From positions 4,773,001 through 4,837,000 of the forward strand of contig NZ_CP047656.1 in the NCBI RefSeq assembly GCF_009906955.1: 64,000 bases of DNA. Reading direction: 5' to 3'. The first letter of the stretch is position 1. Each line of letters opens with the position of its first letter. This stretch comes from Paraglaciecola mesophila (GTDB lineage Bacteria > Pseudomonadota > Gammaproteobacteria > Enterobacterales > Alteromonadaceae). A program made the translations under genes and the position numbers. Positions 18,590 to 55,331 of this stretch are shown here, one piece after another. The notes below the pieces were generated by a model. That model ran no database searches. It was given only the letters and a program-made list of their open reading frames with translations, and had not been told where the DNA came from.

Positions 18590-18610
18590 TTTTCGACACC
18601 TCGTTACTGG

Positions 18611-19552: not shown

Positions 19553-20290
19553 ATGAAGCACAGAACGATTCGCGGAACGATTCAATACACCAGTAAAAAA
19601 CCTGAACGATTTGGACAAGCGCGTGGAAGAGAGTTCTTTACCTTGACGAATCAATCGGATGGGGTGCAAGTTATGCACGCTCACTGCGAAATTGATGATG
19701 AACCAAATGTGGTGCGTGACGTCGTTCAGTCCATGAGACAAGACTGCAGCCCAATTGACTGCAGTGTACGCTTATCCGTTGGGGATAAATATGAAGGAAG
19801 CGGCTGGATCCGCTTTACCGATTCCTATGCTGAGTGTGAAACCCATAACCAAAGAGACGGGCGCATAAGCCAGCGAATTGAACTTGAACAGTCAGTCAAA
19901 TGGTTACAGTCTCACCCGATTGTAGGTGATGGCATACTGATGAAACTGTATGATTTAACTCAAGGACCAGGAAAAACGTTTTTCCCTGATATTATGTTGA
20001 CCTCGCCTGATCATCGTGGCGCAACCGGGCCGCTACTGTTTAAAATGAATGGGTTGGGTATCCAGTACCTAGGTGAGGAAGAGATTGAAGTTCAGGCGGG
20101 CAAGTTTACCGCGCGGCATTTCCAAGTAGTGGATACCGCAGGCAACTTACCGGAAGAGCATCCTCCTTATAATTTATGGGTAACGGCCGATGATGATTAT
20201 TTATTACTCAAAGCCGGTGTGGATGGTTACATGCAGACCCACTATGAACTAACTGAATTTGAGATCATTGGAGGCGAAAATGAGCAGTAA
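19553..20290 (+). CDS. Unknown protein in methyltransferase operon
   Basis: A 245-residue cytoplasmic protein with no signal peptide. It is rich in beta patterns: QARGREFFTLTNQSDGVQVMHAHCEI, a middle GPLLFKMNGLGIQYLGEEEIEVQAGKFTARHFQVVD, and YNLWVTADDDYLLLKAGVDGYMQTHYELTEFE. The segment from 'GEEEIEVQAGKFTARHF' resembles DUF3108-like folds, in which a conserved 'G.f.a..y' strand precedes a 'lwv..d...lvk' hairpin; this is by eye only. AAGGCAG serves as ribosome site. Its stop lies 11 bases inside the next gene, so the three genes from 19553 to 21871 are one translationally coupled operon. Confidence 0.75.
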   Translation: MKHRTIRGTIQYTSKKPERFGQARGREFFTLTNQSDGVQVMHAHCEIDDEPNVVRDVVQSMRQDCSPIDCSVRLSVGDKYEGSGWIRFTDSYAECETHNQRDGRISQRIELEQSVKWLQSHPIVGDGILMKLYDLTQGPGKTFFPDIMLTSPDHRGATGPLLFKMNGLGIQYLGEEEIEVQAGKFTARHFQVVDTAGNLPEEHPPYNLWVTADDDYLLLKAGVDGYMQTHYELTEFEIIGGENEQ

Positions 20291-21497
20291 CGCATTACCA
20301 AGCTGGGATGTGTTAACAAAGCACGGCGTATTTCCTAGCGGCAATCATGATGAAGTTGCACGATTAAATTTTTTAACGCATTTAAATGTACATTTAAGTA
20401 GCCAGATATTGCCAGGAGTGAAGACTGCTTATGATAAGCAGGTAAAACCGGCCATTATTGCTCAGACTGGCCAAGAACCCACATCACGTCATGAAGTACG
20501 AATGCACATGCTGAACAATGGTTACTTTCAAGTGTGGAGTGCCTTGCGCCGAAATACCATGGAAATGCGTCATCAAGCTGCGCGCTCTCAGGTACTGGGG
20601 CAAATTGAAGGCATAGTAGAGAATGTCGATAAAGCCTGTGTCGATGATGTAAATCTTCAGTTGGATAACAGCATAAGCATTCCTCCTAATGTGGGTTCGG
20701 TGGACATTCATTGCCAACCTGGTTGTTATTATCAAGAGTATTTCGAGAACGATGTCACCGTGGCGGCAAGTTACGATTTGGGCTTATTTGTGACCACCGC
20801 AGGTTTATTGGGAGCGCTCAGTGACGGTGGCGGTCAAGGCATTGCAAACTGGCTCAAGACGCAACACCCTGAATTTGCACCTAAGCGTATTTTAGATATT
20901 GGTTGTACTGTGGGGCACAATGCTGTGCCTTTGGCTGAGCACTTTCCTCATGCCGAGGTGATTGCTGTTGACGTGGCTCGCCCAAGTTTACGGTATGCCC
21001 ATGCACGCGCGAAATCATTGGGCGTGCACAATATTCAATTTGTACAAGCTAACGCGGAAGATCTTAGACAATTTGATGATGGTTCATTTGATTTGATCAC
21101 GACCTCGATGTTTCTGCATGAATTGTCTCATCAATCGTTACCGAAAATTCTTAAAACCATACATAGGTTATTAGCCGATGGTGGCTTGAATTTGCATCTT
21201 GAACAGCCGCAATATGCGGGCATGGATGTATACCAACAATTTATTCGTGACTGGGACACGTACTTTAACAACGAGCCCTATTGGGGGCCTATGCACGAGC
21301 TTGACTTGCCAAAAGTCTTTGCTGAATGTGGATTTGATCCTAACGATTTATTTGATGTAGGTGTGGTGTCAAAAGTAGACGAAAAAATATTCGGTAAGCC
21401 AAAAACTGATGGGGAAGACTATGGTCGTTCACCTGTTTGGAACGCACTAGGGCTATGGAAAGGACAGCATGCAAAAATGAGAGAGAATGCAGCATGA
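20280..21497 (+). CDS. Class I SAM-dependent methyltransferase
   Basis: A 405-residue protein with an N-terminal helical domain of about 190 residues and a C-terminal Rossmann methyltransferase domain. Motif I is RILDIGCTVGHNAVPLAEHFP (about residue 205); the acidic end of beta-2 is VIAVDVA, and VQANAEDLRQFDDGSFDLITTSMFLHEL covers motifs II-III. The usual GxGxG reads GCTVG, a common variant. Targets are small molecules or quinone-like compounds. The ATG at 20280 follows GGAGGCG and is preferred over a TTG at 20259. It overlaps both neighbours. The long N-terminal region is not recognised and may bind the substrate. Confidence 0.87.
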   Translation: MSSNALPSWDVLTKHGVFPSGNHDEVARLNFLTHLNVHLSSQILPGVKTAYDKQVKPAIIAQTGQEPTSRHEVRMHMLNNGYFQVWSALRRNTMEMRHQAARSQVLGQIEGIVENVDKACVDDVNLQLDNSISIPPNVGSVDIHCQPGCYYQEYFENDVTVAASYDLGLFVTTAGLLGALSDGGGQGIANWLKTQHPEFAPKRILDIGCTVGHNAVPLAEHFPHAEVIAVDVARPSLRYAHARAKSLGVHNIQFVQANAEDLRQFDDGSFDLITTSMFLHELSHQSLPKILKTIHRLLADGGLNLHLEQPQYAGMDVYQQFIRDWDTYFNNEPYWGPMHELDLPKVFAECGFDPNDLFDVGVVSKVDEKIFGKPKTDGEDYGRSPVWNALGLWKGQHAKMRENAA

Positions 21498-21871
21498 GTG
21501 AAGTTAAAAAACACCTAACACAGAGTGAAAAAATCAATCTAGCTGGCAGCAAAGCAAAAGGTCAGCGACCTTATTTTTTGCAAGACAAACAAACTGAACA
21601 GGCGCTATCAGTTGCCATGACATTGGCCATGGAGTTATCAGTAGTCAAAGAGCGCTTATCATCCCTTGAATGTATGTTGGTGGATAAAGGGGTAATTGAA
21701 AAAGGCGAACTTGATCAGTACCAACCAAGTAAAGAAGAGGTCGCCAAGCGCAGTCTTGAGACCCAAGCTTATCTAGCTCGCGTACTGCGTATTATGCAGC
21801 AGGATAAAGAGGAACTTGAGCGAGATGATCCTGACATGCAAACCGTGCAAGATGAACTCACAAAGTGGTAA
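21494..21871 (+). CDS. Small helical protein, operon partner of the methyltransferase
   Basis: A 125-residue protein starting at ATGA, four bases overlapping the methyltransferase stop. After MSEVKKHLTQSEKINLAGSKAKGQRPYFL comes a predicted long helix (about 35-70: ALSVAMTLAMELSVVKERLSSLECMLVDKG) with heptad-like leucines, then a charged C-terminal helix. This suggests a coiled-coil accessory subunit. An upstream in-frame start at 21437 would lie wholly inside the methyltransferase gene and lacks a reason to be used. The family is unrecognised. Confidence 0.75.
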   Translation: MSEVKKHLTQSEKINLAGSKAKGQRPYFLQDKQTEQALSVAMTLAMELSVVKERLSSLECMLVDKGVIEKGELDQYQPSKEEVAKRSLETQAYLARVLRIMQQDKEELERDDPDMQTVQDELTKW

Positions 21872-29462: not shown

Positions 29463-29491
29463 TTGACTTGCCTTCTGACACAAACTAAATT
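29463..29491 (+). promoter_or_regulatory. Candidate sigma-70 promoter of the 29525 operon
   Basis: TTGACT (29463-29468), 17 bases, then TAAATT (29486-29491). The -10 element overlaps the palindrome at 29488-29505, a position suited to repression. TTGCTTTTTGTCAA (29422-29435), a weak FNR-like box, lies upstream. Confidence 0.5.
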
Positions 29492-29505
29492 TGTCCGTAC
29501 AAATT
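29488..29505. promoter_or_regulatory. Palindromic operator, site 1 (29525 operon)
   Basis: AATTTGTCCGTACAAATT is a perfect inverted repeat with 7-base arms around CCGT. Its core TGTCCGTACA recurs at 51540-51549 and 55318-55327, and with one change at 37922-37931, always just upstream of genes of this cluster. It lies 19 bases before the first ATG of the operon. The arm length and spacing suit a TetR-type dimer, but no TetR gene is in the window. Confidence 0.75.
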
Positions 29506-29524: not shown

Positions 29525-29833
29525 ATGACCACCATAGTCGTATTATTCAATTTGCAAGCCGGTGTTGATGAAAGTGTTTATCGTCAATGGGCCATACAAA
29601 CCGATATTCCTACCGCAGGCGGCCTCGCGTCGGTTGATTCATTCGAAGTGCTAAAAGCAGAAGGTGTATTGATGAGTGAGGCAACGCCGCCGTATCAATA
29701 TATCGAAATTCTCAAAATTAACGACATGGAGCAATTCGGCCAAGATGTCGCAACAGCGACTATGCAGAAAGTCGCCAGCGAGTTTCAGCAGTTCGCGGAT
29801 AACCCTATCTTTATCATGACATCAAAACTGTAG
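29525..29833 (+). CDS. HapK/RedY-like small alpha-beta barrel protein
   Basis: A 102-residue protein of the ferredoxin-like dimeric barrel type. The pattern IVVLFNLQAGVDESVYRQWAIQTDIPTAGGLASVDSFEVLKAEG, then PYQYIEILKINDMEQFGQDVATATMQKVASEFQQFADNPIFIMT, matches REDY-like HapK proteins. In prodigiosin producers these are minor pathway proteins of uncertain chemistry. Here it heads the catabolic run directly behind operator site 1, with nine bases to the SDR gene, so it is likely a binding or isomerase-like partner for the first cytoplasmic steps. No pigment synthesis genes are nearby. Confidence 0.8.
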   Translation: MTTIVVLFNLQAGVDESVYRQWAIQTDIPTAGGLASVDSFEVLKAEGVLMSEATPPYQYIEILKINDMEQFGQDVATATMQKVASEFQQFADNPIFIMTSKL

Positions 29834-29841
29834 GTGACGCT

Positions 29842-30684
29842 ATGTCTCAATATCCTGAATTAAAAGGCAAAGTAGCGGTTATTACTGGGGCTGGCCGTCA
29901 AGCGGGTCTTGGTGAAGCCATGGCTAAGCGACTGGCTGCTGAAGGCTGCAAAGTGGTGATCACTGACATAGGTAAATCTGTTAGTGAACACACGCCTGAC
30001 AGTGCGATAGGCCACAGTGATGAAATGAATCAGATTGTGGCTGAAATTAAGCAAGCAGGCGGTGAAGCAAGTGCGTTTGTGTGTAACGTTTTAAACGAAA
30101 AGGACGTGCAAGACACAGTCGACTTTGCAGTACAAACCTACGGTTCCCTTGATATCTGGGTGAATAACGCAGGAATCGGCTACTTAATGAAGTCCATTCT
30201 TGATATGCAGGTAGATGAGTGGGACGCAGTGCTTGGGGTTAATCTACGAGGTGCGTTTCTTGGGGTGAAGTACGCCGCAGCGCAAATGGTAAAGCAAGGT
30301 AAAGGCGGCAAAATTATCAATATTGGCTCTCAAGCGTCCAAGTCAGCCTTTGGACATGCTTCTGCTTACACCACGTCAAAACATGGCATGAACGGCTTGA
30401 CCCGCGTAGCGGCGATTGAGCTAGGCAGTCACAAGATCAACGTGAATGAAATTTGTCCAAACCATGTCACAACGGGTTTAGGGGCATGGCAAAACGCCCA
30501 CTTTTCAGAAGTGACAGGCAAAGGCCACGAACAGTATATGCAAGACATGCGCGAGCGCATTCCTCTAGGCCGACCAGGGTTGCAAGAAGACATCGCCAAA
30601 GCCTGCGCGTTCTTGTGTTCCGAGCAAGCCAGTTACATCACGGGTGAGTGCATGAACGTATCCGGCGGTGAAGAATATCACTAG
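29842..30684 (+). CDS. Short-chain dehydrogenase/reductase
   Basis: A 280-residue classical SDR. The cofactor loop is AVITGAGRQAGLGEAMAKRLA, a variant of TGxxxGxG with an added Gln-Ala; DIGKSV follows beta-2. The NNAG motif (VNNAGIGY), catalytic Ser (IINIGSQASKSAF) and YTTSKHG (YxxxK) are present. The C-terminus (FLCSEQASYITGECMNVSGGEEYH) is canonical. It oxidises or reduces an alcohol or ketone with NAD(P). It lies between the HapK-like and deacetylase-fold genes in one operon, so it likely acts early on the imported compound. Confidence 0.9.
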   Translation: MSQYPELKGKVAVITGAGRQAGLGEAMAKRLAAEGCKVVITDIGKSVSEHTPDSAIGHSDEMNQIVAEIKQAGGEASAFVCNVLNEKDVQDTVDFAVQTYGSLDIWVNNAGIGYLMKSILDMQVDEWDAVLGVNLRGAFLGVKYAAAQMVKQGKGGKIINIGSQASKSAFGHASAYTTSKHGMNGLTRVAAIELGSHKINVNEICPNHVTTGLGAWQNAHFSEVTGKGHEQYMQDMRERIPLGRPGLQEDIAKACAFLCSEQASYITGECMNVSGGEEYH

Positions 30685-30751
30685 TGGTGAAAGCGCCTGT
30701 AAATCAGAAATGTCCTTGAAAAAACATACAAGAAGATGAGAGAGCAATTTA

Positions 30752-31645
30752 ATGTCAGATTATAAATGGCCAAAAGACAAACGACTCGCCATGTCCATAG
30801 TGGTGAACGTTGAAGAGGGCTCAGAGTACAGCATTAAAGAAGGCGATAAGGGCATGGAGCCGGTGGATGAATTGCAAGTTCACCTTAAAAAGCCGATGCG
30901 TAATTACGGTAACGAGTCAAATTATCAATACGGGATCACGGAAGGCGCGCCGCGGATCATCAAGTTACTCGATAAATATCAGGTGCCGGCAACGTGGACG
31001 GCAGCGGCATTAAGTTTAGAGCGAGCACCACAAATTGCCGAAGCAATTCGCCGCAGAAATGATGAAACCTGTTCTCACGGTTATCGCTGGGTGTTTCAGT
31101 TCCGTATGAATGAAAACGAAGAACGGCAGTTTATAAAAGATGCTGTTACCAGTATTGAAAAGACCACAGGTAAGCGACCGTTAGGCTGGTTATCACGCTA
31201 CCTACTGACTGAAAACACGCGCCGTATTTTACAAGAAGAAGGCTTCTTGTATCACATGGATGATTACAGCGCCGATGCGCCCTTTTGGGATGCGGTGCAA
31301 GGTTCAGATGAGCCCATGGTCATCGTGCCATACGCATTGGATTCAAATGATATGAAAATGTGGGTAGCGCCTTCGTTAACACCAGATGCGTGGCTGAAAT
31401 ACGCCATTGATACGTTTGACGTGTTATACGCAGAGGGAGCAGAGCAGCCCAGAATGATGAGTTTAGGCTTGCATTTGCGCATTATTGGGCGACCTGGTCG
31501 TATTGGTGCTTTTGAGGCGTTCCTGAAGTATGTCAGTGAAAAACCAGGTGTGTGGTTTGCCACCCGTCAACAAATAGCAGAAACCTTCCAAGAGCAAGTA
31601 CCAGCATCAGGCTATACACCTAACAAGTGTGATGGAGTGGCCTAG
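30752..31645 (+). CDS. PuuE-like polysaccharide-deacetylase-fold hydrolase (3)
   Basis: A 297-residue relative of the two genes at 16668-18589. It begins with KDKRLAMSIVVNVEEGSEYSI, where NVEEG replaces the TFDDG of classical deacetylases, as in the allantoinase PuuE. Next come YQYGITEGAPRIIKLLDKYQVPATWTAAA, DETCSHGYRWVFQF, GWLSRYLLTENTRRILQEEGF and LGLHLRIIGRPGRIGAFEAFLKYV. The last block matches the usual C-terminal His-containing motif. It is predicted to cut an amide-type bond. Its stop overlaps the GTG of the CitE-like gene by one base, which ties it firmly to the CoA pathway. Confidence 0.85.
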   Translation: MSDYKWPKDKRLAMSIVVNVEEGSEYSIKEGDKGMEPVDELQVHLKKPMRNYGNESNYQYGITEGAPRIIKLLDKYQVPATWTAAALSLERAPQIAEAIRRRNDETCSHGYRWVFQFRMNENEERQFIKDAVTSIEKTTGKRPLGWLSRYLLTENTRRILQEEGFLYHMDDYSADAPFWDAVQGSDEPMVIVPYALDSNDMKMWVAPSLTPDAWLKYAIDTFDVLYAEGAEQPRMMSLGLHLRIIGRPGRIGAFEAFLKYVSEKPGVWFATRQQIAETFQEQVPASGYTPNKCDGVA

Positions 31646-32475
31646 TGAACACCATTTTACGCTCTTTGCTTTTTGTGCCTGGCTCACGCCCTGAACGCTT
31701 TGAAAAAGCCTTAGGGGCTGGTGCTGATTTGGTTTGCATTGATTTAGAAGATGCTGTGCTACCGAATGACAAAGATTCAGCACGTGATGCAGTTTTAAAG
31801 TGTGTACATCAAACGCAATCGCTTTGCGTGCGCATTAACCCTGTAGGCAGTGACGCGGGAGAGAAAGATCTACAGGCGTTTGCCAATGCGCCGTTAGCAC
31901 CTGAAGTGGTGATGCTAGCTAAATGCGAATCAGCAGAAGATGTATTGCATGCGCAGCGTGTTATCGGCAACACAAGCACACGCTTTTTACCGCTCATTGA
32001 AACGTTAAAAGGGGTTGAAAACGCCTACCAAATAGCCAGCGCCAGTAAGCAGGTCAAACACATCATGTTTGGTGGTGCCGATATGGCGAGTGAGCTTAGG
32101 TGTGATTTTAGCTACCAGCCTTTGTTGTTTGTTCGCAGTCAATTGGTGTTTGCTGCGGCCAAAGCCAATGTTGGTCTTATCGACGTACCGTTTGTGGATA
32201 TTAAAAATGAAGCTGGGCTGGTAGACGAAACCTACAAGATCAAAGCCCTTGGTTTCAGTGGTAAAGCCGCTATTCATCCTTGTCAAATTCCAGTTATTCA
32301 CCAGACATTTATGCCCACTGCAGAGCAAATCGCTTATGCAGAGCAAGTCATGGCTGCTGTAGAGGGACCGGATGCAGGGGTAGTGGTGGTAAACAATAAA
32401 ATGGTTGACCGGCCGATAATTTTAGCCTGTCAACGCATACTGGCGTTAGTGAGTAACACGTCGTCAAATCCATAA
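31645..32475 (+). CDS. CitE-like acyl-CoA lyase (HpcH/HpaI family)
   Basis: A 276-residue TIM-barrel lyase. The start is a GTG overlapping the previous stop (TAGTG). Family blocks are RSLLFVPGSRPERFEKALGAGADLVCIDLEDAV, VRINPVGSDAGEKDL, LPLIETLKGVENAYQIA, IMFGGADMASEL and GFSGKAAIHPCQIPVI. Members cleave malyl-, beta-methylmalyl- or citramalyl-CoA to glyoxylate or pyruvate plus an acyl-CoA. With the MaoC hydratase downstream, the hydrate-then-cleave pair of itaconate or mesaconate degradation is reproduced. The exact substrate is not determined by sequence. Confidence 0.88.
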   Translation: MNTILRSLLFVPGSRPERFEKALGAGADLVCIDLEDAVLPNDKDSARDAVLKCVHQTQSLCVRINPVGSDAGEKDLQAFANAPLAPEVVMLAKCESAEDVLHAQRVIGNTSTRFLPLIETLKGVENAYQIASASKQVKHIMFGGADMASELRCDFSYQPLLFVRSQLVFAAAKANVGLIDVPFVDIKNEAGLVDETYKIKALGFSGKAAIHPCQIPVIHQTFMPTAEQIAYAEQVMAAVEGPDAGVVVVNNKMVDRPIILACQRILALVSNTSSNP

Positions 32476-32492
32476 CTAAGAGAGAATGACCT

Positions 32493-33011
32493 ATGGTACA
32501 GAATGTAAAAAAAGTGGGTGAAAACCGTTATCGCGAAACCTTCGGCAGATGCTTCGAAGAGTTTACCGTAGGTGACGTGTATGAGCATCGTCCTGGGCGC
32601 ACGATAACCAAGACTGACAATACGTGGTTTACCTTGCTCACCATGAATACACACCCAATGCACTTTGATGATGAGTACGCTAAAGCCAGTGAATTTGGTA
32701 AATGCATTGTGTGTTCACCTTTCACCGTCGCGTTAATGGTCGGAATGAGCGTTACCGATGTTAGCCAGAAAGCGATTGCCAATTTAGGCTGGGAAGACAT
32801 CAAAATGACCTACCCACTGTTTGAAGATGACACCTTATACGCAGAATCAAAAGTGATTGATAAGCGAGAGTCTAAATCACGTCCTGGCGCGGGAATTGTG
32901 ACAGTAGAAACACTGGGCTTTAACCAAGACGGCAAACAAGTGTGTAGCTTTGTGCGCAAAATGCTTATCGCCAAACAAGGTCACTCAGTCGAAGAAAAAG
33001 TTAATTATTAA
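32493..33011 (+). CDS. MaoC-family acyl-CoA hydratase
   Basis: A 172-residue hotdog-fold hydratase. The MaoC signature is GRCFEEFTVGDVYEHRPGRTITKTDNTWFTLLTMNTHPMHFDDEYA, with the Asp (TKTDN) and His (NTHPMHFD) catalytic pair. Then come FTVALMVGMSVTDVSQKAIANLGWEDIKM and KRESKSRPGAGIVTVETLGFNQDG. The protein style is that of mesaconyl- or itaconyl-CoA hydratase-like enzymes that add water to an enoyl-CoA. It sits between the CitE-like lyase and the acyl-CoA dehydrogenase. Confidence 0.88.
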   Translation: MVQNVKKVGENRYRETFGRCFEEFTVGDVYEHRPGRTITKTDNTWFTLLTMNTHPMHFDDEYAKASEFGKCIVCSPFTVALMVGMSVTDVSQKAIANLGWEDIKMTYPLFEDDTLYAESKVIDKRESKSRPGAGIVTVETLGFNQDGKQVCSFVRKMLIAKQGHSVEEKVNY

Positions 33012-33038
33012 TCGCTAGATAATCAGTAGAGGTTTGCT

Positions 33039-34214
33039 ATGTCTGACGCATGGTCAAAAGAAGATGAATTAGGGATCATAGACATGATCGAAAAATGGGT
33101 TGAAAACGATGTTCGACCCATCGCCAAAGAGCATGATCAACAAGATAAATATCCCCATGCGCTTGCTGAGCAAATGAAAGTATTGGGGCTATTTGGTGCC
33201 ACCATAGGTCAAGAATTTGGTGGCCTAGGTTTACCCGCTTCCATCTATGCCAAGATCGTCATGAAGGTGGCCTCTGCCTGGATGGCCCCAAGTGGGATTT
33301 TCAATTCGCATTTGATTCAAGCCTCGGCCATAGAACGTTGCGGCACGCAAGCGCAAAAAGAGCGGTTTTTACCACGCATGGCCACCGGCGAACTGCGTGG
33401 GGGCGTGGCACTAACTGAACCTAACGCAGGGACTGATTTACAAGCCATCCGCACCACCGCAGTGAAAGACGGTGATGAGTACATCATCAATGGGGCAAAA
33501 ACCTGGATCACTAATTCTCTCAATGGGAATTCATTAGCAGTGTTGGTAAAAACCGATCTTGATGCAGTGCCTGCTCACAAGGGCACCAGTATGTTCATTG
33601 TAGAGACCAAAGACGCTGACGGTAATTTTAAACCCGGGATCACCGTTTCAAAAATGACCAAACTGGGATATCGAGCAATTGATACCTGTGAAGTGGTATT
33701 TGAAAATGTACGTGTTCCTGCGGCAAATTTAGTCGGTGAAAAAGAAGGCTCGGGTTTCAAACATGCCATTGGCGGTTTGGAGTTAGGGCGGATCAATGTC
33801 GCTGCGCGTGGCGCCGGTATTGCTCAAGGAGCAACAGAGTTGGCAGTGCGTTACGCTCAAGAGCGTGAAACCTTTGGAAAAGCCATTTGTCAGCACCAAG
33901 CTATTCAGCTCAAGTTAGGCGAAATGGCTACCCAAGTGGAAGCCGCTCGGTTGCTAATTGAGCAAGCCGCAACAAAATACGACGCCAATGAGCGCTGTGA
34001 TATGGAAGCAGGCATGGCGAAATATTTTGGCTCAGAAGCTGGGGTGTTTTGTGCCAATGAAGCCATGCGTATTTTTGGCGGCTATAGCTACTCAGTGGAG
34101 TACGACATTGAGCGTTACTACCGAGATGCCATGCTGATGTGTATTGGTGAAGGTACCAATGAAATGCAACGCATTATTATCGCTAAGCAATTAATTGATA
34201 AACATAAAATTTAA
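33039..34214 (+). CDS. Acyl-CoA dehydrogenase
   Basis: A 391-residue flavoprotein of usual length. Family blocks are FGATIGQEFGGLGLPASIYAKI, GGVALTEPNAGTDLQAIRTTAV, YIINGAKTWITNSLNGNSLAVLVKTD and FGKAICQHQAIQLKLGEMA. The C-terminal IFGGYSYSVEYDIERYYRDAMLMCIGEGTNEMQRIIIAKQL carries the catalytic Glu (SVEY) where short-chain and branched-chain enzymes place it. It oxidises an acyl-CoA to an enoyl-CoA and passes electrons to ETF. In this operon it would make the double bond that the MaoC enzyme hydrates. Confidence 0.93.
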   Translation: MSDAWSKEDELGIIDMIEKWVENDVRPIAKEHDQQDKYPHALAEQMKVLGLFGATIGQEFGGLGLPASIYAKIVMKVASAWMAPSGIFNSHLIQASAIERCGTQAQKERFLPRMATGELRGGVALTEPNAGTDLQAIRTTAVKDGDEYIINGAKTWITNSLNGNSLAVLVKTDLDAVPAHKGTSMFIVETKDADGNFKPGITVSKMTKLGYRAIDTCEVVFENVRVPAANLVGEKEGSGFKHAIGGLELGRINVAARGAGIAQGATELAVRYAQERETFGKAICQHQAIQLKLGEMATQVEAARLLIEQAATKYDANERCDMEAGMAKYFGSEAGVFCANEAMRIFGGYSYSVEYDIERYYRDAMLMCIGEGTNEMQRIIIAKQLIDKHKI

Positions 34215-34288
34215 CTGATCCTCGATGGCACATGGTGAGCTACCGCTCACTTTCGTGCTTACTTGACGTACGATAACAGGACAAAAGC

Positions 34289-35479
34289 ATGACACAACTC
34301 CCTCTTGATGGTGTAAGGATCATCGCAGTTGAACAATACGGTGCGGGCCCATACGGCTCTATGTATTTGGCTGATTTAGGCGCAGAGGTGATAAAAATCG
34401 AGAACCCGGCCATAGGGGGAGACGTGTCTCGCCAAACGGGGCCATTTTTTATCGGTGAAAATGACAGCTATTTCTACCAGACTTTTAATGTAAACAAAAA
34501 AAGCCTGACTCTGAATTTAAAATCGGCGGAAGGACGCAAAGTTTTCGAAGAGTTGGTAAAAACAGCCGATGCAGTGACCAACAATTTACGCGGCGACCAA
34601 CCGCAAAAATTGGGTATTACTTATGAACAGTTAAAGCAGGTAAACCCTAAAATTGTGTGTGGACATTTATCTGCCTATGGGCGGGATAATGACCGCGCTA
34701 GTTGGCCGGGTTATGATTACTTAATGCAGGCCGAAGCTGGCTTGATGTCACTTACAGGTGAGCCTGATCAAGCGCCCACGCGATTTGGCGTGTCCATGGT
34801 CGATTTCATGACTGGCGCAGTGGCATCTTTAGGTTTGATTGCGGGCATACTGGGTGCCCATCGAACAGGTCAGGGAAGAGACGTAGATGTTTCATTATTT
34901 GATGTGGCTTTGCATCAATTGTCTTACCCAGCGACCTGGTATTTAAATGAGCAGCACGTGGTGCAGCGCGTAGCGCGTTCAGCGCACCCAGCTACCGTGC
35001 CGTGTCAGCTTTATAAAACCCAAGATAGCTTTGTATTTTTAATGGCCATGACAGACAAATTCTGGGATGTGCTGGTTGATATTCTTGATGACGACGTGTT
35101 GAAAGAACCCCGTTTTGCGCATGTGGCGTCGCGGCGTGAAAATCGTGATGTTCTGACCGCAGAAATCGATCGCGTTTTATCAGCACACTCTACCGCACAT
35201 TGGCTTGAAATATTGAAGGGGCGCATTCCATGTGCACCAGTCTATGACGTTCCTCAAGCCTTAAATAACCAATACATTCGCGATATTGGCATGGTGCATT
35301 CCGTTCCCCATCCCCACAACCAAGACATGGAAATCTTAGCGAATCCGATTAAGCTCGACGGCCAACGCCTAACTGGCAAAGCCGCAGTAGCCATGGGCAC
35401 TGATACCCAGAGCATACTTGAAGAGCTGGGTTACAGCGAGCAGGAAATAAGCCGCCTTAGCCAAAACAAAGTCGTGTAG
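34289..35479 (+). CDS. CaiB/BaiF family CoA-transferase (second copy)
   Basis: A 396-residue family III CoA-transferase: GVRIIAVEQYGAGPYGSMYLADLGAEVIKIENP, the NNLRGDQPQKLGITYEQL block, and Asp172 in SMVDFMTG at the catalytic position. It is separated from the acyl-CoA dehydrogenase by 74 bases and from the next CoA-transferase by 30, all on one strand. It presumably activates an acid by CoA transfer from succinyl-CoA or another donor. The N-terminal EQYGAGP wording is common in the formyl-CoA/itaconate-type branch, although the assignment is not certain. Confidence 0.9.
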   Translation: MTQLPLDGVRIIAVEQYGAGPYGSMYLADLGAEVIKIENPAIGGDVSRQTGPFFIGENDSYFYQTFNVNKKSLTLNLKSAEGRKVFEELVKTADAVTNNLRGDQPQKLGITYEQLKQVNPKIVCGHLSAYGRDNDRASWPGYDYLMQAEAGLMSLTGEPDQAPTRFGVSMVDFMTGAVASLGLIAGILGAHRTGQGRDVDVSLFDVALHQLSYPATWYLNEQHVVQRVARSAHPATVPCQLYKTQDSFVFLMAMTDKFWDVLVDILDDDVLKEPRFAHVASRRENRDVLTAEIDRVLSAHSTAHWLEILKGRIPCAPVYDVPQALNNQYIRDIGMVHSVPHPHNQDMEILANPIKLDGQRLTGKAAVAMGTDTQSILEELGYSEQEISRLSQNKVV

Positions 35480-35509
35480 TTCATTTGTCATTCTTAGGAG
35501 TATAACAAG

Positions 35510-36670
35510 GTGAAATTAAAAGGTCTTCGCGTATTGGATTTATCACTCTTTTTGCCCGGACCTCATTTTACCATGATGATGGCCGATCATGGCGCTGAGG
35601 TGTTAAGCCTTGAACCGCCGACAGGTGAGCCGGTGCGAGAAATCGGTTTAAAACAAAACGGCCAATCTGTTTGGTTTAGAAACGTATTTCGAGGGAAAAA
35701 AAGCATAAATTTAAATTTAAAAAGTACAAAAGGAAAAGAAGCGTTTTATAAATTGTGTGAAACCGTCGATGTATTAGTTGAAGCCTTTAGACCTGGGGTA
35801 GTTGAGCGGCTAGGAATTGACTTCGATACCATAGCAAAGATTAATCCTAAGTTAGTTTACTGTTCTATTTCGGCCTACGGACAAACCGGACCTAAACGAT
35901 TGAATCCTGCCCACGACCTGAGTATTCAAGCAGATTCTGGCGCCGTGCAAATTAATCAAGGACAGGATGCCAAGCCAGCACAGCCTGGAATGCCCGTGGC
36001 TGATATGGCCGGCAGTTTAATGGCTTTTTCTGGGGTGTTGATGGCACTGTTGCGTTGTCAGCAAACAGGGAAAGGTGACTACCTTGATATATCTATGCAG
36101 GATTCTTTGGTTGCTTGGTATGCCAATGTGATGGGCCCGCCATTTGCTGAAAACCGCTCACCAGAACCTAAAGAAGAACGTAGCTGGGGCGGTGCAGCGA
36201 TGTACAACATTTATCAAACCGCAGATGACAGATATTTTACCCTAGGCGGCAGCGAGCTTAAATTTGCTAGCAATCTTCTGACCGCATTAGGCCGAGAAGA
36301 TTTAATTAGCCTGTGTCGGCTTCCACCCGGTGCCGGGCAAGCGCCGGTAAAGGCCTTTTTAGAAACAAGGTTTTTAGAGAAGCCGCTGGATTATTGGGAG
36401 GAATTTCTAGCGAATATTGATGTTTGCTGGTCTCCAGTTCGTAGTTTGAATGAGGCTATTCGTGATGAACATTTGCTACAACGCGATATGTTGCTCACAG
36501 ATGAGCAGGGCAACTTGCATCTAGGCGTACCCGTTAAGTATCGCCGAGAACCGGCTCAGCCGAACCTTGGCTTGCCCGCATTTAGTCAAGATACCCAAGC
36601 CGTGTTAGCTGAGCTTGGGTATAGCGAGCAAGACATTACCCATATGCGCAATGAAAATGCGTTTATTTAA
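35510..36670 (+). CDS. CaiB/BaiF family CoA-transferase (third copy)
   Basis: A 386-residue family III CoA-transferase starting at GTG 35510, with AGGAG ten bases upstream. It shows LRVLDLSLFLPGPHFTMMMADHGAEVLSLEPPTGEP, EAFRPGVVERLGIDFDTI and Asp165 in PVADMAGSLMA at the catalytic position. It differs clearly from its neighbour at 34289, so the two are not a recent duplication. The pair may form a heteromer or act on two acids of one route. The gene ends 16 bases before the CpcT-like lipoprotein start. Confidence 0.9.
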   Translation: MKLKGLRVLDLSLFLPGPHFTMMMADHGAEVLSLEPPTGEPVREIGLKQNGQSVWFRNVFRGKKSINLNLKSTKGKEAFYKLCETVDVLVEAFRPGVVERLGIDFDTIAKINPKLVYCSISAYGQTGPKRLNPAHDLSIQADSGAVQINQGQDAKPAQPGMPVADMAGSLMAFSGVLMALLRCQQTGKGDYLDISMQDSLVAWYANVMGPPFAENRSPEPKEERSWGGAAMYNIYQTADDRYFTLGGSELKFASNLLTALGREDLISLCRLPPGAGQAPVKAFLETRFLEKPLDYWEEFLANIDVCWSPVRSLNEAIRDEHLLQRDMLLTDEQGNLHLGVPVKYRREPAQPNLGLPAFSQDTQAVLAELGYSEQDITHMRNENAFI

Positions 36671-36686: not shown

Positions 36687-37721
36687 ATGAAACAAATCAT
36701 CACTGTATTGTGGGCGGCAGCTATTTTAGCTGGTTGTGCCAGTCAAGACAGGGCCTCAACGACTAACGCTCAGGTACAAGCCAAAGACACTATCCAGGAA
36801 TCTCTTTTTCACCAATGGTTCGCTGCTGAGTTTGATAATCACGAACAGCACTGGCAAGACAATATCAATAAGGAAAAAGAGCCTGACTTACAGGTACATG
36901 AGCATATACATCATGTTTTTGCGCCTTTGGCAACGCCTGCACTTGAAGGCACCACATACTTCGTAAAGCAATACATGGATGGTGATCCGAGTAAGGTGTA
37001 TCGTCAACGCTTGTACCAATTTTTACCCAACGAAGAAAAGGGTGCCTTACAGCTCAATATCTTTCGTTTCAAGGACGAAGCTAAGTATGCTGATGCGCAT
37101 CTACACCCTGAGCTTTATGATAAATTAACCCGAGATGAAATTGTCACGTATCCGGGGTGTGAAGTGTACTGGCGATTTAACGGTGAGTACTTTGACGGCA
37201 CCATGGGGAATAACACCTGTAGTATTGTGTCTAAACGTAGCGGTAAAAAAATCTTTTTTAACGATACCTTGCGTCTAACGGACAACGAAATTTGGATCGC
37301 GGATAAGGCCGCGGATGAAGATGGCAATTATGTTTTCGGCAACAAAGCGGGTATTCCCCATAAAAATCGTAAAGTGACTTACTTTACTGGCTGGGGCGGC
37401 GCTCGAGTAGGTGGAAAAGAGGCCTCGGAAGATGCCAGATGGATTTTCAATCGTGACTTGTTACTGCACAACGAAGGGCAAATTGTTGCTTTGCAAGATG
37501 CGAAAACAGGCGAAAAAACGGGCTACTCGATTCAACTGGCGTTATTAACCTATCAGAATACCTCTGACCCAATTTTTAAGTTTGGTCTGATTGATGACGC
37601 CACTGGCAAAACCATTACTTATATTTGGAGCGACCGTAGCAACCCAACAACGGGTATGAATTTACGATGGATGCAAGCGGGTGTAAAAATCAAACAAATC
37701 CGGCCCCATTTCAGCTTTTAA
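36687..37721 (+). CDS. CpcT/CpeT-like chromophore-lyase-fold lipoprotein
   Basis: A 344-residue protein starting at ATG 36687 after AGGGAAAG; an upstream in-frame ATG at 36615 lies inside the CoA-transferase. The first residues form a lipoprotein signal (MKQIITVLWAAAILAGC, lipobox LAGC). The body matches the CpcT/CpeT style: HQWFAAEFDNHEQ, YFVKQYMDGDPSKVYRQRLYQF, TYPGCEVYWRFNGEYFDGTMGNNTC and LRLTDNEIWIADKAADEDGNYVFGNKAGIPHKNRKV. In cyanobacteria CpcT-type lyases attach bilins to phycobiliproteins; here it is an envelope lipoprotein in a non-phototroph operon, so ligand binding in the periplasm is a fair guess only. Confidence 0.82.
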   Translation: MKQIITVLWAAAILAGCASQDRASTTNAQVQAKDTIQESLFHQWFAAEFDNHEQHWQDNINKEKEPDLQVHEHIHHVFAPLATPALEGTTYFVKQYMDGDPSKVYRQRLYQFLPNEEKGALQLNIFRFKDEAKYADAHLHPELYDKLTRDEIVTYPGCEVYWRFNGEYFDGTMGNNTCSIVSKRSGKKIFFNDTLRLTDNEIWIADKAADEDGNYVFGNKAGIPHKNRKVTYFTGWGGARVGGKEASEDARWIFNRDLLLHNEGQIVALQDAKTGEKTGYSIQLALLTYQNTSDPIFKFGLIDDATGKTITYIWSDRSNPTTGMNLRWMQAGVKIKQIRPHFSF

Positions 37722-37748
37722 GCGCGTCGTTTAGGCGCAATGTGAACG

Positions 37749-37781
37749 AGGCGGGGCAATTTATGCACCGCCTTTTTTTTG
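37749..37781 (+). terminator. Rho-independent terminator after the 29525-37721 operon
   Basis: AGGCGG (37749-37754) and CCGCCT (37768-37773) form a stem with a long loop, followed by eight T residues. It closes the long operon before the TonB receptor promoter. Confidence 0.8.
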
Positions 37782-37917: not shown

Positions 37918-37935
37918 AATTTGTCCGTGCAAATT
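37918..37935. promoter_or_regulatory. Palindromic operator, site 2 (TonB receptor 38026)
   Basis: AATTTGTCCGTGCAAATT differs by one base from site 1 at 29488-29505. It lies 90 bases before the receptor ATG, just behind the two FNR-type boxes, so the promoter may respond to two regulators. Confidence 0.72.
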
Positions 37936-38025
37936 TGGCTAGAGTGATATCTGCCAACTGAAGACATTGTCGTTTTCGGGTTGCGTATAACGCCAAATTA
38001 TTACAATAAAGTTAGAGGACCACCC

Positions 38026-40314
38026 ATGAACATGCATTTTAGTCGCAGTAAAATCGCGCAAATGAGCAAGCTAGCCATAATGGCTCCGCTTGTGAGTATG
38101 CCGCTTGGAGCCATGGCTCAAGAAAACGCACCCGATACAGAAACGGTATTCGATCAAGACGTGATTGAGCAAATTGAAGTTACGTCTCGTTATCGTAAAG
38201 AAACATTAAATAAAATCCCTATTTCTGTGACGACCTTTAGCGCGGACGATATCGAAGAAGCAGGTTTGAGGAATATCAACGATATCGCAGTGAGTGCAGT
38301 GGGCATGTCGATGGAGCGCACATTCGGACGTCAATCTGATATTCCTGTTATCCGTGGCGTGTCATGGATCCCAGGCTTTGGCTCTCAAAAAGCCTCGTAC
38401 TTTATTGATGGTGTATATTTTGGAGGCTCTATTCAAAGTTTACCGCTGGATTTGATTGAGCGAGTAGAAATTGTCAAAGGTCCACAAAGTGCTCAGTATG
38501 GCCGTCGTACTTTTTCTGGGGCAATTAACTTTATCACCAGCCGTCCCAGTGACGAGTTATCAGGGTACGTTAACCTCACATTAGGGCAAAACGGGAACCA
38601 GAAATTAGCCGCTGGGGTATCAAGCAAGCTATCAGACATGTTTGCCTTTCGCGCCTCTATTTCAGCAGATAGTTATGATGGTGATTGGGAAAACACCAAG
38701 GAAGACGGCCCAGATGTGGGTGGCGAAAAAACTAAATCAGGTATGTTAGGTTTCTATTTTACTCCCAGTAAGAACACTGATATTTCGCTTAACTACATTT
38801 ACAACGAAAATGATGACGAAGCGCAGCCTTTCGGATTTCAAGGAGCGGATGAAAACAACTGCTTTTTGGACACTCGGCCGTACTATTGTGGTGAAGCACT
38901 CAGAAATCAGCCTATTAGTATCGGTGGTGGCGGTTTCCTCGATAATGATGATTATGGTTTACGGGTGACCAGTGAGCATATTAGCTTTAAAATTAACCAC
39001 CATTTCGATTTTGGTACCCTTTCATGGATCAGTGGTTGGAACTCGCGAGATGGGGAAACCGGTTTAGATCAAACTTACAATGGCTACGAAGAATCCTTTA
39101 GCTTTGGTTTTTTCAGTGGTGGCCCATACTTAGCACCAGCAGATGCATGGTACACCTTGGATACATCAGGCACAGATGAGTACAGTCATGAATTACGCTT
39201 CAGCTCTAGTGCCTTTGATGACCGTTTGTATTGGTCGGTGGGCGCATACTTATGGCATTCAGAAGCCGAACCAAATGCAGTGGATAGCTTTGCCGAAGAA
39301 CTAGAAAACCAAGCATTAATGGCAATGGCTACCTACGAGTTTACTGATGATTTTCGTTTATCCGCTGAGATCCGTCGCTCCAGTGACGAAGTCAATACTG
39401 AGGCTTATGATGAGTTAATTCAAAACGCGGAATTTGCTAACGTCAGTAACGAATTTGATAGCACCACGACACGTTTTATCGCTGAATATGATGTGAGTGA
39501 CGACACGCTAATGTACTTAACGCGCTCTGAAGGCAATAGCCCAGGTGGATTCAATACAAGTACCTTGCTGCCCAATGATTTGGTCGTTATAGACGAAGAA
39601 GACATGGTGATGTATGAACTTGGGGTGAAATCAACCTTGTTCGATGGAAGCTTGTACGTGTCAGCTGCCGCTTACACCATGGATTGGACCAAACAGCAGC
39701 TAACCGATAGCTTTGATGAAGTCGAAGGCCCGCCAGTTTCATATACATCTAATGCCGGCTCGACGGAAATCAAGGGCCTTGAGATTGAAGGTACTTGGCT
39801 TATCAATGAGAATTTTAGCTTGGAATTTGGGTTATCACGCACCGATGCCCAGTTTGAAGAATTGTTTGATAGTAACCAATGCCGCTTTTTTGCACCGGGC
39901 GGGGCATCAAGCTTCTGTGTTGGGGATAACTTACGTGAGTTTGGTGATCTTAAAGGCAATTCACCACCTCAAGTACCAAAGAATGAAGCCACATTAGCAC
40001 TGAGCTATTCCACGCAAATCAAAGAAGGTTTAGAAGTCTTTAGTCGTATGGATTTTTCATATGATTCGAGCCGTTATGCCCATGTGCACAACTTGATTGA
40101 AACGGGTTCGCGTAAGTTACTCAATTTAAAAGCTGGGGTGCAATTGGATAACGTACGCTTAACAGCTTGGGTAAATAACGTTACGGATAACGATACCCCA
40201 ACCTATGTATTTAGATATGTTGATGTACAAAGCTTTGCCTTTGGCTCGCGCGCTTTCCCTGTCGCACCGAGCAGAGGACGAGAAGTGGGTATTACGGCTT
40301 CATATAAATTTTAG
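38026..40314 (+). CDS. TonB-dependent receptor, regulon member A
   Basis: A 762-residue outer-membrane receptor. The ATG at 38026 follows GAGGA and is preferred to a TTG 45 bases upstream. A signal peptide ends near GAMAQEN, and a TonB-box-like IEQIEVTSRYRKE precedes the plug. The plug includes PVIRGVSWIPGFGSQKASYFIDGVYFGGS and ERVEIVKGPQSAQYGRRTFSGAINFI. The barrel ends GREVGITASYKF. It is a clear paralogue of the 49047 receptor, sharing EVTSR, PVIRG, YFIDG and VVKGPQSA..GR.. signatures. Operator site 2 and FNR-type boxes precede it. It presumably imports the substrate of the adjacent operon. Confidence 0.93.
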   Translation: MNMHFSRSKIAQMSKLAIMAPLVSMPLGAMAQENAPDTETVFDQDVIEQIEVTSRYRKETLNKIPISVTTFSADDIEEAGLRNINDIAVSAVGMSMERTFGRQSDIPVIRGVSWIPGFGSQKASYFIDGVYFGGSIQSLPLDLIERVEIVKGPQSAQYGRRTFSGAINFITSRPSDELSGYVNLTLGQNGNQKLAAGVSSKLSDMFAFRASISADSYDGDWENTKEDGPDVGGEKTKSGMLGFYFTPSKNTDISLNYIYNENDDEAQPFGFQGADENNCFLDTRPYYCGEALRNQPISIGGGGFLDNDDYGLRVTSEHISFKINHHFDFGTLSWISGWNSRDGETGLDQTYNGYEESFSFGFFSGGPYLAPADAWYTLDTSGTDEYSHELRFSSSAFDDRLYWSVGAYLWHSEAEPNAVDSFAEELENQALMAMATYEFTDDFRLSAEIRRSSDEVNTEAYDELIQNAEFANVSNEFDSTTTRFIAEYDVSDDTLMYLTRSEGNSPGGFNTSTLLPNDLVVIDEEDMVMYELGVKSTLFDGSLYVSAAAYTMDWTKQQLTDSFDEVEGPPVSYTSNAGSTEIKGLEIEGTWLINENFSLEFGLSRTDAQFEELFDSNQCRFFAPGGASSFCVGDNLREFGDLKGNSPPQVPKNEATLALSYSTQIKEGLEVFSRMDFSYDSSRYAHVHNLIETGSRKLLNLKAGVQLDNVRLTAWVNNVTDNDTPTYVFRYVDVQSFAFGSRAFPVAPSRGREVGITASYKF

Positions 40315-40398: not shown

Positions 40399-41811
40399 AT
40401 GATGCAACGTAGGCAAATCATCAAAGGTTTTGCTACCAGTTCACTGCTGTTGGGGGCTGGTGGAATTAGCATGCCATTGTGGGCTAGTGGTAACAGTCGC
40501 GCGGATGTCATCGTTATCGGTGCCGGTTTAGCTGGCTTAACCAGTGCCCGCTACTTAAAAGCGCAGGGGCTTAAAGTGTTACTGCTTGAAGCGCGCGAGC
40601 GGGTAGGGGGAAGGATCCTCACGCTCAATTCAACCGGTATGGACGTTGAGGCCGGTGGACTGCAAATCGGTCAGGGATACGGATTAATGCGCACCTACGC
40701 TCAGCAACTTGGCTTACCGCTTGTGTCGTTGGGGCGATATGCTGAACAAAACGCCTTTGTAATAAACGGACAACGTATTAGCGCCGAGGAATGGCCAACT
40801 CACCCACAAAATTTGCTAGCAACGTCTGAAAAAAATACGCTGCCTTCGCGTTTATATTATCAGATGTTAAGCAAAGGCCCAGAATATGCTCTGCCTTGGG
40901 ACTGGACATCAGAAAAATACGCGCCATTAGATATATCGTTAGACGCATATTTTTCCCAGCAAAACATCTCAACACAAGCGCTGCGCTTAATGGATGCCAA
41001 TATTAATGCGTTGAGCTTAAAAGACTTGTCCGCTGCAGATGCATTTTACCGATTGAGTCTCGCTCGTATCGGGGGAAGAGGGGCACAAAAAATTGAAGGG
41101 GGAAACAGTCGTTTTACACAGGCTTTAGGAGATGAACTCACAGGAGAATTACACACTGAAAAGGTCGTGACTCACATTAACCAAAGTCATGATAAGGTGG
41201 CGGTGCGCTGTGAAGATGGCAGTCAGTATATTGCTAAGCGCTGCATTGTCACCAGCCCGTTTTCTGCACTAAAAGAGGTGTCAATTCAAGGCGATATAAG
41301 CCCACAGAAACGTCAAGCGATCGATAAGGCGCTATATACACCCGTGACCCAAGTGCATTTTGCCGTTAAGAAGCAAGTAGATGCTTCTATGTTAGAAGCG
41401 ACGAATTTATGGACCGACAACGCTTTAGGTAGAGTGTTTAGTCAACTCAATGATGCTGGTCAATTGTGCTACCTAACCAGTTGGATAAACGGTCAACAAG
41501 CGAAAGCGTTAGACATGCTTAGCCCCAGCGAAGCCGTTAACACCGTTAAGCGCGCATTAGAGAAATATTATCCTGACCTTAAGGGTAAAACTGACGTTGT
41601 TCATCATCAATCTTGGGCTAACGAGCGCTTCTCAAAGGGGGCATATATTCAATTCGCCCCGGGTCAAGTACAAACATTAGTACCCCATATGGCCAGTATC
41701 GAAGGCAGGTTACATTTTGCCGGTGAGCATACCGAGTTTATGTACTCGGGTATGGAGTCTGCGATAGTATCTGGAGTACGTGCTGCACAAGAAGTTGCCG
41801 AAAGGCTTTAG
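40399..41811 (+). CDS. Exported flavin amine oxidase
   Basis: A 470-residue FAD amine oxidase. The N-terminus has a twin-arginine type signal (QRRQIIKGFATSSLLLGAGGISMPLWA), so it is probably exported folded with FAD. The dinucleotide motif is VIVIGAGLAGLTSARYLKAQGLKVLLLEARERVGGRI. The C-terminal flavin block is GRLHFAGEHTEFMYSGMESAIVSGVRAAQEV, in which the residue usually carrying a cysteinyl-FAD bond is Met-Tyr-Ser, so FAD is likely non-covalent. It oxidises an amine or a similar C-N or C-C bond. Two adjacent ATGs (40399, 40402) are possible starts. It follows the receptor and operator site 2, which suggests periplasmic processing of the imported compound. Confidence 0.87.
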   Translation: MMQRRQIIKGFATSSLLLGAGGISMPLWASGNSRADVIVIGAGLAGLTSARYLKAQGLKVLLLEARERVGGRILTLNSTGMDVEAGGLQIGQGYGLMRTYAQQLGLPLVSLGRYAEQNAFVINGQRISAEEWPTHPQNLLATSEKNTLPSRLYYQMLSKGPEYALPWDWTSEKYAPLDISLDAYFSQQNISTQALRLMDANINALSLKDLSAADAFYRLSLARIGGRGAQKIEGGNSRFTQALGDELTGELHTEKVVTHINQSHDKVAVRCEDGSQYIAKRCIVTSPFSALKEVSIQGDISPQKRQAIDKALYTPVTQVHFAVKKQVDASMLEATNLWTDNALGRVFSQLNDAGQLCYLTSWINGQQAKALDMLSPSEAVNTVKRALEKYYPDLKGKTDVVHHQSWANERFSKGAYIQFAPGQVQTLVPHMASIEGRLHFAGEHTEFMYSGMESAIVSGVRAAQEVAERL

Positions 41812-42355: not shown

Positions 42356-42424
42356 TGTTGATGTGTAGGCCGCTCGCTCTGGTAAATGCACCAATACTCA
42401 TATTACCTAAATAGGACAATTTTA

Positions 42425-42736
42425 ATGATTAAAGTCAGTGTGTTATACCCAAACAGTGAAGACGCCACCTTTGATATGGATTATTACCGTGCTACGCACC
42501 TGCCGCTGGTGGCTGTGTTGGTCGGTGAGGCACTTGTGTCAGCGCATGCTGATTTAGGGGTAGCGAGTGGCGTGCCCGGTCAGGCCGCAGCTTACATCGC
42601 GATGGGGCATTTAGTATTTGAATCGGTGGAATCATTCCAGCAGGCGTTTGGGCCTCATCAAGGGGAAATTTTGGCAGATTTGGTTAATTTCACCAATACA
42701 CAGCCAATAGTTCAAATTAGCGAAATACAGCAGTGA
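42425..42736 (+). CDS. EthD-family protein
   Basis: A 103-residue dimeric alpha-beta barrel protein. The start MIKVSVLYPNSEDATFDMDYYRATHLPLVAVLVGEALVSAHADLG is the EthD pattern (D-Y-x-x-H), and AAYIAMGHLVFESVESFQQAFGPHQGEILADLVNFTNTQPIVQISE completes it. It begins at ATG 42425 after AGGA; an upstream in-frame ATG at 42386 lacks a ribosome site. EthD proteins assist P450 or decyclase steps in xenobiotic and polyketide chemistry, and their own reaction is poorly known. It has its own upstream inverted repeat. The third small barrel type in this stretch (with HapK-like and SnoaL-like) is notable. Confidence 0.82.
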   Translation: MIKVSVLYPNSEDATFDMDYYRATHLPLVAVLVGEALVSAHADLGVASGVPGQAAAYIAMGHLVFESVESFQQAFGPHQGEILADLVNFTNTQPIVQISEIQQ

Positions 42737-51515: not shown

Positions 51516-51537
51516 GGGCATTCCTGTTGTGTGTGGG

Positions 51538-52335: not shown

Positions 52336-52411
52336 GATTGGTTTCCGTTATTATGATAAGTGACTTTGTTGAAATGAGTCCTCAATATCAACGCCATTTG
52401 CACAGGGCGCA

Positions 52412-52425
52412 TTGACAATGATCAA
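52412..52425. promoter_or_regulatory. FNR-type box before the exported VOC gene
   Basis: TTGACAATGATCAA matches TTGAT-N4-ATCAA with one change; its reverse complement TTGATCATTGTCAA is like the box TTGATAAATGTCAA at 37886. It lies between the FNR-like regulator gene and the VOC gene it would control. Confidence 0.6.
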
Positions 52426-52487
52426 CTGTGTCAGTTTGTATGCCCTTGCATGTGCTTAATCCGTTCTCGTATATCAGATGTGAGTTT

Positions 52488-55313: not shown

Positions 55314-55331
55314 AATTTGTCCGTACAAATG
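55314..55331. promoter_or_regulatory. Palindromic operator, site 4 (divergent VOC genes)
   Basis: AATTTGTCCGTACAAATG matches site 1 except for the last base. It lies 4 bases from the start of the minus-strand VOC gene and 46 bases from the ATG at 55378, so it can control both directions. On the minus strand, TTGACA (55336-55341) and AAATTT at 17-base spacing bracket it. Confidence 0.72.

Follow-up and report, generated by a model that had tools for sequence, protein, structure and literature searches.

The subject of this work is a catabolic operon of the gammaproteobacterium Paraglaciecola mesophila, located within a 64,000-nucleotide stretch of contig NZ_CP047656.1 (positions 4,773,001 to 4,837,000; hereafter, the window, numbered from its first letter). 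Eight genes follow one another on the forward strand. They encode a HapK/REDY-like dimeric alpha-beta barrel protein of no known function (29525..29833; Pfam PF11639, 39.9 bits), a short-chain dehydrogenase/reductase (SDR; 29842..30684) that scored under every curated subfamily cut-off, a PuuE-fold cyclic amidohydrolase, the proposed imide/ureide ring-opening enzyme (30752..31645; assigned by NCBIfam, tree and PDB matches), a RipC-related CitE-like acyl-CoA lyase of the HpcH/HpaI type (31645..32475; RipC_Ccl score and tree), a RipB-related MaoC hydratase (32493..33011; RipB_Ich score and tree), an acyl-CoA dehydrogenase, putatively acting on a (substituted) succinyl-CoA (33039..34214; Pfam/NCBIfam), and two class III CoA-transferases (34289..35479 and 35510..36670; Pfam/NCBIfam). 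The top NCBIfam match of the first transferase was succinyl-CoA:mesaconate CoA-transferase, with 226 bits against a cut-off of 700. The initial annotation, made from the letters alone, had listed these eight genes, and their positions and order were confirmed by the open reading frames (ORFs) and the matching Pfam/NCBIfam families.

The eight-gene set is, however, part of a larger system, of which only the centre had been seen. A palindromic operator, AATTTGTCCGTACAAATT, lies at 29488..29505, 19 nt before the HapK start, overlapping a weak −10-like hexamer (29486-29491). The operon also includes a ninth gene (36687..37721, forward strand; PF06206, 1.6e-35), whose product is a lipoprotein of the CpeT/CpcT family that has an additional C-terminal part; the ORF opens at 36615, and the ATG at 36687 is the likely start. 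A terminator-like hairpin followed by a T run (37748..37781, forward strand; fold z = −2.98) is read at the operon end. The one-base overlap between the hydrolase and lyase genes noted in the initial annotation does exist (TAG 31643-31645, GTG 31645-31647), but we rejected it as a meaningful feature: orthologous operons show a 4-base overlap in four genomes and gaps of 2-5 bases in four others, so that it carries no weight.

The eight genes were found to be syntenic in nine Alteromonadaceae genomes and occur in many other Gamma- and some Betaproteobacteria, and given this synteny their order is well beyond chance. Named genomes were scanned with the PuuE-like protein, and the loci studied are the best 80 of 240, a sample rather than all that exist in nature. 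The operon was present in Colwelliaceae, Shewanella, Psychrosphaera, Aestuariibacter, Stenotrophomonas, Lysobacter and Rubrivivax-type Burkholderiales. In 58 long loci of the PuuE-like clade, the partners were the SDR (52), the acyl-CoA dehydrogenase (48), CoA-transferase 1 (43), HapK (42), MaoC (33), a CoA ligase (31), an MmgE/PrpD protein, MmgE1 (29), an amidase (28) and CitE (27), while seven allantoinase-like control loci contained none of them apart from one amidase. Furthermore, the CoA ligase, which is distant from the operon, and the PuuE-like protein were found in the identical 9 of 99 relatives, even where unlinked (about 6e-13 if genomes are treated as independent, about 2e-5 by genus). 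Co-occurrence in other genomes, on which the initial annotation had staked its proposal, is therefore strong. Islands of a sphingomonad and of Aestuariibacter hold the whole set, with the genes for electron transfer flavoprotein (ETF) adjacent or operator-linked: in Aestuariibacter, ETF and almost the entire set are contiguous, and in a Sphingomonas genome an operator site lies upstream of the ETF genes. An acyl-CoA dehydrogenase needs ETF. Stand-alone CitE homologs in two genomes (G019, G051) had no operon partners. A phage or viral origin was rejected, no MaoC relative being found in viral contigs. Copies of a Y1/IS200-type transposase and IS110-like pieces lie within the island (window 14690-15673; locus L148:9109-11514), which suggests mobility or rearrangement.

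The palindrome, AATTTGTCCGKACAAATT, is common to the HapK operon and three other transcription units of the Paraglaciecola genome: a GntR unit with two MmgE/PrpD genes, the CoA ligase and the amidase; a unit pairing the gene of a TonB receptor with that of an exported flavin amine oxidase; and a unit for exported VOC proteins plus another TonB receptor. The 5.04 Mb genome contains only four sites with ≤2 mismatches, and each is an island promoter (HapK; GntR/MmgE2; TonB receptor then flavin oxidase; divergent VOC). Other Paraglaciecola genomes carry sites at the same places, where fragments cover them. In most Alteromonadales operons the operator precedes HapK by 18-37 nt, and in Stenotrophomonas, Lysobacter and Burkholderiales by slightly more. 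Across 85 loci, 57 sites were found where Markov sequences gave an expectation of about 0; most of them lie ahead of HapK, DUF1330, TonB receptor, flavin oxidase, MmgE2/GntR, MaoC or PuuE-like genes, and Alpha-, Beta- and Gammaproteobacteria alike have the operator in front of the same genes. When other whole genomes were scanned, the sites proved to be bunched in single islands, for instance nine in 49 kb of a sphingomonad. The strongest single case is the Tistrella plasmid pTM2, where three far-apart loci are each headed by an operator: MmgE-ligase-amidase beside GntR; CitE-MaoC; and PuuE, a TRAP (tripartite ATP-independent periplasmic) transporter, MmgE, acyl-CoA dehydrogenase and two CoA-transferases. 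A GntR protein with a UTRA domain is encoded divergently beside the palindromic operator, as in HutC-type GntR regulons, and is the probable repressor that would bind it, judging from sequence. The catabolic regulon is real, widely conserved and undescribed in the literature searched, in which no account of the gene set or the operator was found; the sole match to the latter was an unrelated Drosophila paper.

The partner genes were found by neighbour clustering and family scans. The two MmgE/PrpD proteins, the PaaK-like CoA ligase and the GatA/AtzE-like amidase are encoded 14-17 kb upstream of the window, beside the GntR/UTRA regulator. Within the window, a site search placed the operator AATTTGTCCGTGCAAATT at 37918..37935, before the forward-strand genes for a TonB-dependent receptor (37981..40314, likely start ATG 38026; PF00593/PF07715) and the flavin amine oxidase (40399..41811; PF01593, 2.6e-64), which by reading bears a twin-arginine-type (Tat) signal. 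An EthD-domain protein (42386..42736, forward strand; PF07110) is encoded further on. Another operator, AATTTGTCCGTACAAATG, was located by site search at 55314..55331, within a divergent VOC promoter. On its reverse-strand side lie genes for three exported VOC (glyoxalase-fold) proteins of PF00903 (54215..55309, 53196..54215 and 51769..52335, the last with a signal peptide by reading), a Crp/Fnr-type regulator (52488..53186) and the second TonB-dependent receptor of the regulon (49047..51521; by synteny); on the forward strand lies an ORF for an exported VOC-like protein (55378..56034) with no Pfam match and conserved synteny. Signal peptides on four VOC or VOC-like proteins of this operator-controlled divergent cluster (51769-56034) represent an unusual location for the fold. 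The product of the ninth operon gene, CpeT, scored 123 bits with PF06206 against a gathering score of 21; its lipobox Cys is invariant in eight orthologs and phmmer matched it to CpcT (4o4o, 4e-8). The structure prediction was too poor to use (predicted local distance difference test, pLDDT, 55).

As for the hydrolase, the initial annotation called it "PuuE-like", and its status proved to be different from that of an allantoinase. With the allantoinase PuuE model (NCBIfam TIGR03212) it scored 247.3 bits, far under the cut-off of 424.6, and the true PuuE (493.5 bits) is located elsewhere in the genome. In the tree, all 82 operon-type sequences fell on one side of a branch with a Shimodaira–Hasegawa-like approximate likelihood ratio (SH-aLRT) support of 98, apart from the allantoinases; our trees are quick ones, with SH-aLRT support alone, no bootstrap, and several long reference branches. 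Twenty-five positions are fixed differently between operon-type and allantoinase-like sequences. The sub-cut-off score, the separate clade and the true PuuE elsewhere led us to reject allantoinase as the identity of this gene. The protein shares with PuuE (3cl6) the fold and the small-ring (cyclic-ureide) recognition motifs SHGYRW and GLHxRxIGRPxR; its best PDB matches are the PuuE structures 1z7a and 3cl6, and it has the PuuE/polysaccharide-deacetylase fold with no signal peptide at the sequence start, as expected of a cyclic imide hydrolase. The substrates of the characterised enzymes in this branch of the superfamily are small cyclic imides or ureides (PMC9304392, PMC3084791). The cyclic imide hydrolases HxnM and that of P. 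putida YZ-26 (PMC9304392) resemble the operon protein in superfamily and in its proposed order of events, imide ring opening and then an amidase, but belong to another subfamily. The clade is likely misannotated at present as allantoinase or polysaccharide deacetylase.

The initial annotation compared the other end of the operon with the itaconate degradation set (ict-ich-ccl). This was sensibly guessed: RipC/Ccl and RipB/Ich are the closest relatives of the CitE-like and MaoC proteins, although both score below cut-off (CitE-like, 233 bits against 375 with NF038242; MaoC, 240.6 against 340 with NF038241). In the trees that it had suggested as a check, CitE-like grouped with Yersinia RipC (3qll) and MaoC with an annotated RipB cluster, both in branches neighbouring the Rip branch and not inside it, and a place in the itaconate pathway proper is thus not supported; no bona fide RipB reference above cut-off was found for the class in 274 genomes. 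The parallel link to mesaconate and Mcl/Mch did not hold, since MaoC is a 172-aa single-domain protein and the malyl-CoA lyase score was 20.8 bits against a cut-off of 500. The Yersinia-type RipABC operon also differs in RipA, a CoA-transferase of the acetyl-CoA hydrolase type, as opposed to class III here.

The closest characterised system is the itaconate-methylsuccinate cluster of pseudomonads and Cupriavidus (ich-mcd-VOC-mmgE-ict-ccl; PMC12290011), where MmgE isomerises methylsuccinate, the acyl-CoA dehydrogenase yields mesaconyl-C4-CoA, and hydration and cleavage give acetyl-CoA and pyruvate. Like that cluster, our system encodes together, or under one operator, a class III CoA-transferase, an acyl-CoA dehydrogenase, a MaoC hydratase, a CitE-family lyase, MmgE/PrpD and VOC proteins. 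Unlike it, it has in addition the PuuE-fold hydrolase, amidase, CoA ligase, SDR, HapK, a second MmgE, TonB uptake, the exported oxidase and the GntR operator, and its CitE-like lyase resembles RipC more than it does the lyase of P. aeruginosa. The catalytic signatures were intact by reading (DLED, VRIN and GGADM in CitE, His...HP plus Lys in MmgE, GEGT in the acyl-CoA dehydrogenase).

These assignments allow us to propose a route. An external substrate would enter via the TonB receptors and be prepared in the periplasm by the CpeT lipoprotein, the flavin amine oxidase and the VOC proteins; the receptors, the exported VOC proteins and the exported flavoenzyme suggest that the compound comes from outside and is trimmed there before it goes further. 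In the cytoplasm, the PuuE-fold hydrolase would open a five-membered ring, that of a cyclic imide, ureide or lactam, and the amidase would take off the second nitrogen, leaving a 1,4-dicarboxylate substituted at C2/C3. All characterised MmgE/PrpD substrates are C2/C3-substituted 1,4-dicarboxylates (PMC12290011), and opening of a five-membered imide followed by deamidation would give exactly this skeleton. The MmgE/PrpD proteins may then set its stereochemistry by epimerisation or shift its double bond, the PaaK-like ligase or the class III CoA-transferases would make the CoA ester, and the acyl-CoA dehydrogenase and MaoC would convert it to a citramalyl-CoA-like ester, which the RipC-like lyase would cleave to a 2-oxoacid and an acyl-CoA. 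On balance, and with modest confidence, we favour this scheme, in which the HapK operon is the central operon of a regulon for ring opening, CoA activation and cleavage. The suggestion in the initial annotation that a C-N hydrolase feeds a branched dicarboxylyl-CoA is consistent with everything found; what it overlooked was the control and the extent of the pathway, including the amidase, CoA ligase, two MmgE/PrpD proteins, GntR, TonB receptors, oxidase and CpeT.

Several points weigh against the proposed route. Genome-wide, the 18-mer with ≤3 mismatches is no commoner than a reversed control (6 vs. 6), and hence the evidence for the operator comes from position and conservation between genomes; two operon-bearing genomes (L075, L081) showed no recognisable operator site. 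Pelagic alphaproteobacteria retain just PuuE-like, MmgE, ligase and amidase genes, so that not every PuuE-like gene has the CitE/MaoC end close by. The PuuE-fold enzyme could act on an acyclic amide instead.

A second branch co-occurs with the operon and stands under the same operator in the sphingomonad (L206:6536). It comprises a reverse-strand module (16668..19282) of two more PuuE/polysaccharide-deacetylase-fold hydrolases (16668-17594 and 17594-18589) and an isochorismatase-like amidase (18611-19282), together with a class III CoA-transferase (603-1787, reverse strand) and a 3-hydroxy-3-methylglutaryl-CoA-lyase-like (HMGL-like) protein (2142-3074, forward strand), the latter pair adjoining LeuC/LeuD-like genes just upstream of the window. 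Second-branch genes are also seen at L148:14470-19033, and a GlcD-like oxidase is among the branch members. An associated forward-strand module (19553..21871) is a conserved trio of a beta-barrel protein of no Pfam family, a methyltransferase and a small helical protein; the ORF at 19553 is modelled as a DUF1849/LolA-like beta-barrel, which gives no clue to the substrate. In pelagic Rhodospirillaceae (L095, L101, L102, L124), PuuE-like genes have tandem copies of the barrel protein next to them. A DUF6314 protein (24323-24790) with a weak THAP4 heme-binding-like match, a DUF1838 protein (13098-14018) and an unassigned protein (10151-10624) recur in the islands and are possible binders of hydrophobic ligands. 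A ZapE-like gene (45653-46870) is apparently split into two ORFs, in relatives too, and a separate neighbouring cluster (57253-64000 and L149) encodes a sulfatase, a TonB receptor, a LacI-type protein and a sugar isomerase.

The same enzymology might serve another N-heterocycle, such as a substituted hydantoin, a pyrrolidine/piperidine alkaloid or another marine or plant amine, after an initial oxidation by the flavin amine oxidase. This substrate class is a serious candidate, though we are inclined to doubt it. The oxidase homologs are operator-controlled in three classes, the PuuE-like protein matches allantoinase, which acts on a hydantoin ring, with 230 bits as against 60 for HpPgdA-type imidases, and HxnM opens an alkaloid-type imide (PMC9304392); yet CpeT and the two parallel branches are left unexplained, and no specific compound is named.

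Somewhat more doubtful, if the most interesting, is a tetrapyrrole substrate (a bilin, chlorophyll or heme residue), whose rings would leave as methyl/vinyl/ethyl maleimides or hematinic acid, with one branch for each of two ring types: PuuE-like/amidase/MmgE/CitE for one, and the deacetylase-fold pair with isochorismatase-like, LeuCD-like and HMGL-like proteins for the other. Such ring fragments are a hypothesis that draws on the imide chemistry, the presence of two branches and a protein of the CpeT family. CpeT adjoins the operon in about ten Alteromonadales loci, the island contains six C-N hydrolases, one operator covers both branches in the sphingomonad, TonB uptake and the exported flavin oxidase are operator-linked, and TRAP uptake in Tistrella suits a carboxylate-bearing imide. 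Moreover, tetrapyrrole ring fragments occur in leaves and sediments (PMC7318184, PMC8669743), maleimides and hematinic acid in particular in senescent leaves and lake sediments (PMC7318184). On the other hand, CpeT is confined to Alteromonadales loci, being missing from most operon-bearing genomes, and within the order it also stands in unrelated contexts; the partly similar protein of the sphingomonad island is no CpeT by Pfam; the TonB receptors lack the heme-receptor FRAP/NPNL motifs; we found no enzyme for a bilin, heme or chlorophyll; and the closest relatives of the oxidase are amine and L-amino-acid oxidases. As a member of the CpcT/CpeT bilin lyase family, CpeT may bind or transfer a bilin. 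A shade less probable again is the full version, a regulon for complete breakdown of the fragments (methyl-vinyl/ethyl maleimides or ethylidene succinimides, plus hematinic acid) through TonB uptake, oxidation of a bilin or chlorophyll residue in the periplasm, binding of the pigment by the CpeT-family protein, imide opening, deamidation and two-branch CoA-dependent cleavage.

It is improbable that the PuuE-fold protein works as an N-deacetylase or deformylase on an acyclic intermediate in a pathway that never handles a ring imide: the superfamily holds many deacetylases, and HpPgdA is without a confirmed small substrate (PMC3084791), but the cyclic-ureide motifs are kept, there is no signal peptide, and the gene is linked to an amidase and succinate-type enzymes. 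An ordinary itaconate/methylsuccinate operon with an incidental hydrolase, the simplest form of the initial annotation, is very hard to credit despite the RipB/RipC kinship and the acyl-CoA dehydrogenase and MmgE as in PMC12290011, given the sub-cut-off RipB/RipC scores, the hydrolase, ligase and amidase as the most conserved partners across taxa, and the operator common to this operon and the TonB, oxidase and VOC units.

In other words, returning to the favoured route, the gene set probably serves to feed on a small ring that contains nitrogen, by opening it and then cleaving the branched acid so formed. If so, this would be a widespread catabolic route for cyclic imides or related N-heterocycles, whose members could be predicted from a readable operator, and it would name a substrate class for the PuuE-fold clade. 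Possibly, the regulon lets bacteria use the breakdown products of pigments such as chlorophyll and bile-type pigments. Chlorophyll turnover is on the scale of 10^12 kg per year (PMC7318184), and if the substrate is tetrapyrrole-derived, the bacterial mineralisation of chlorophyll ring nitrogen and carbon would become testable.

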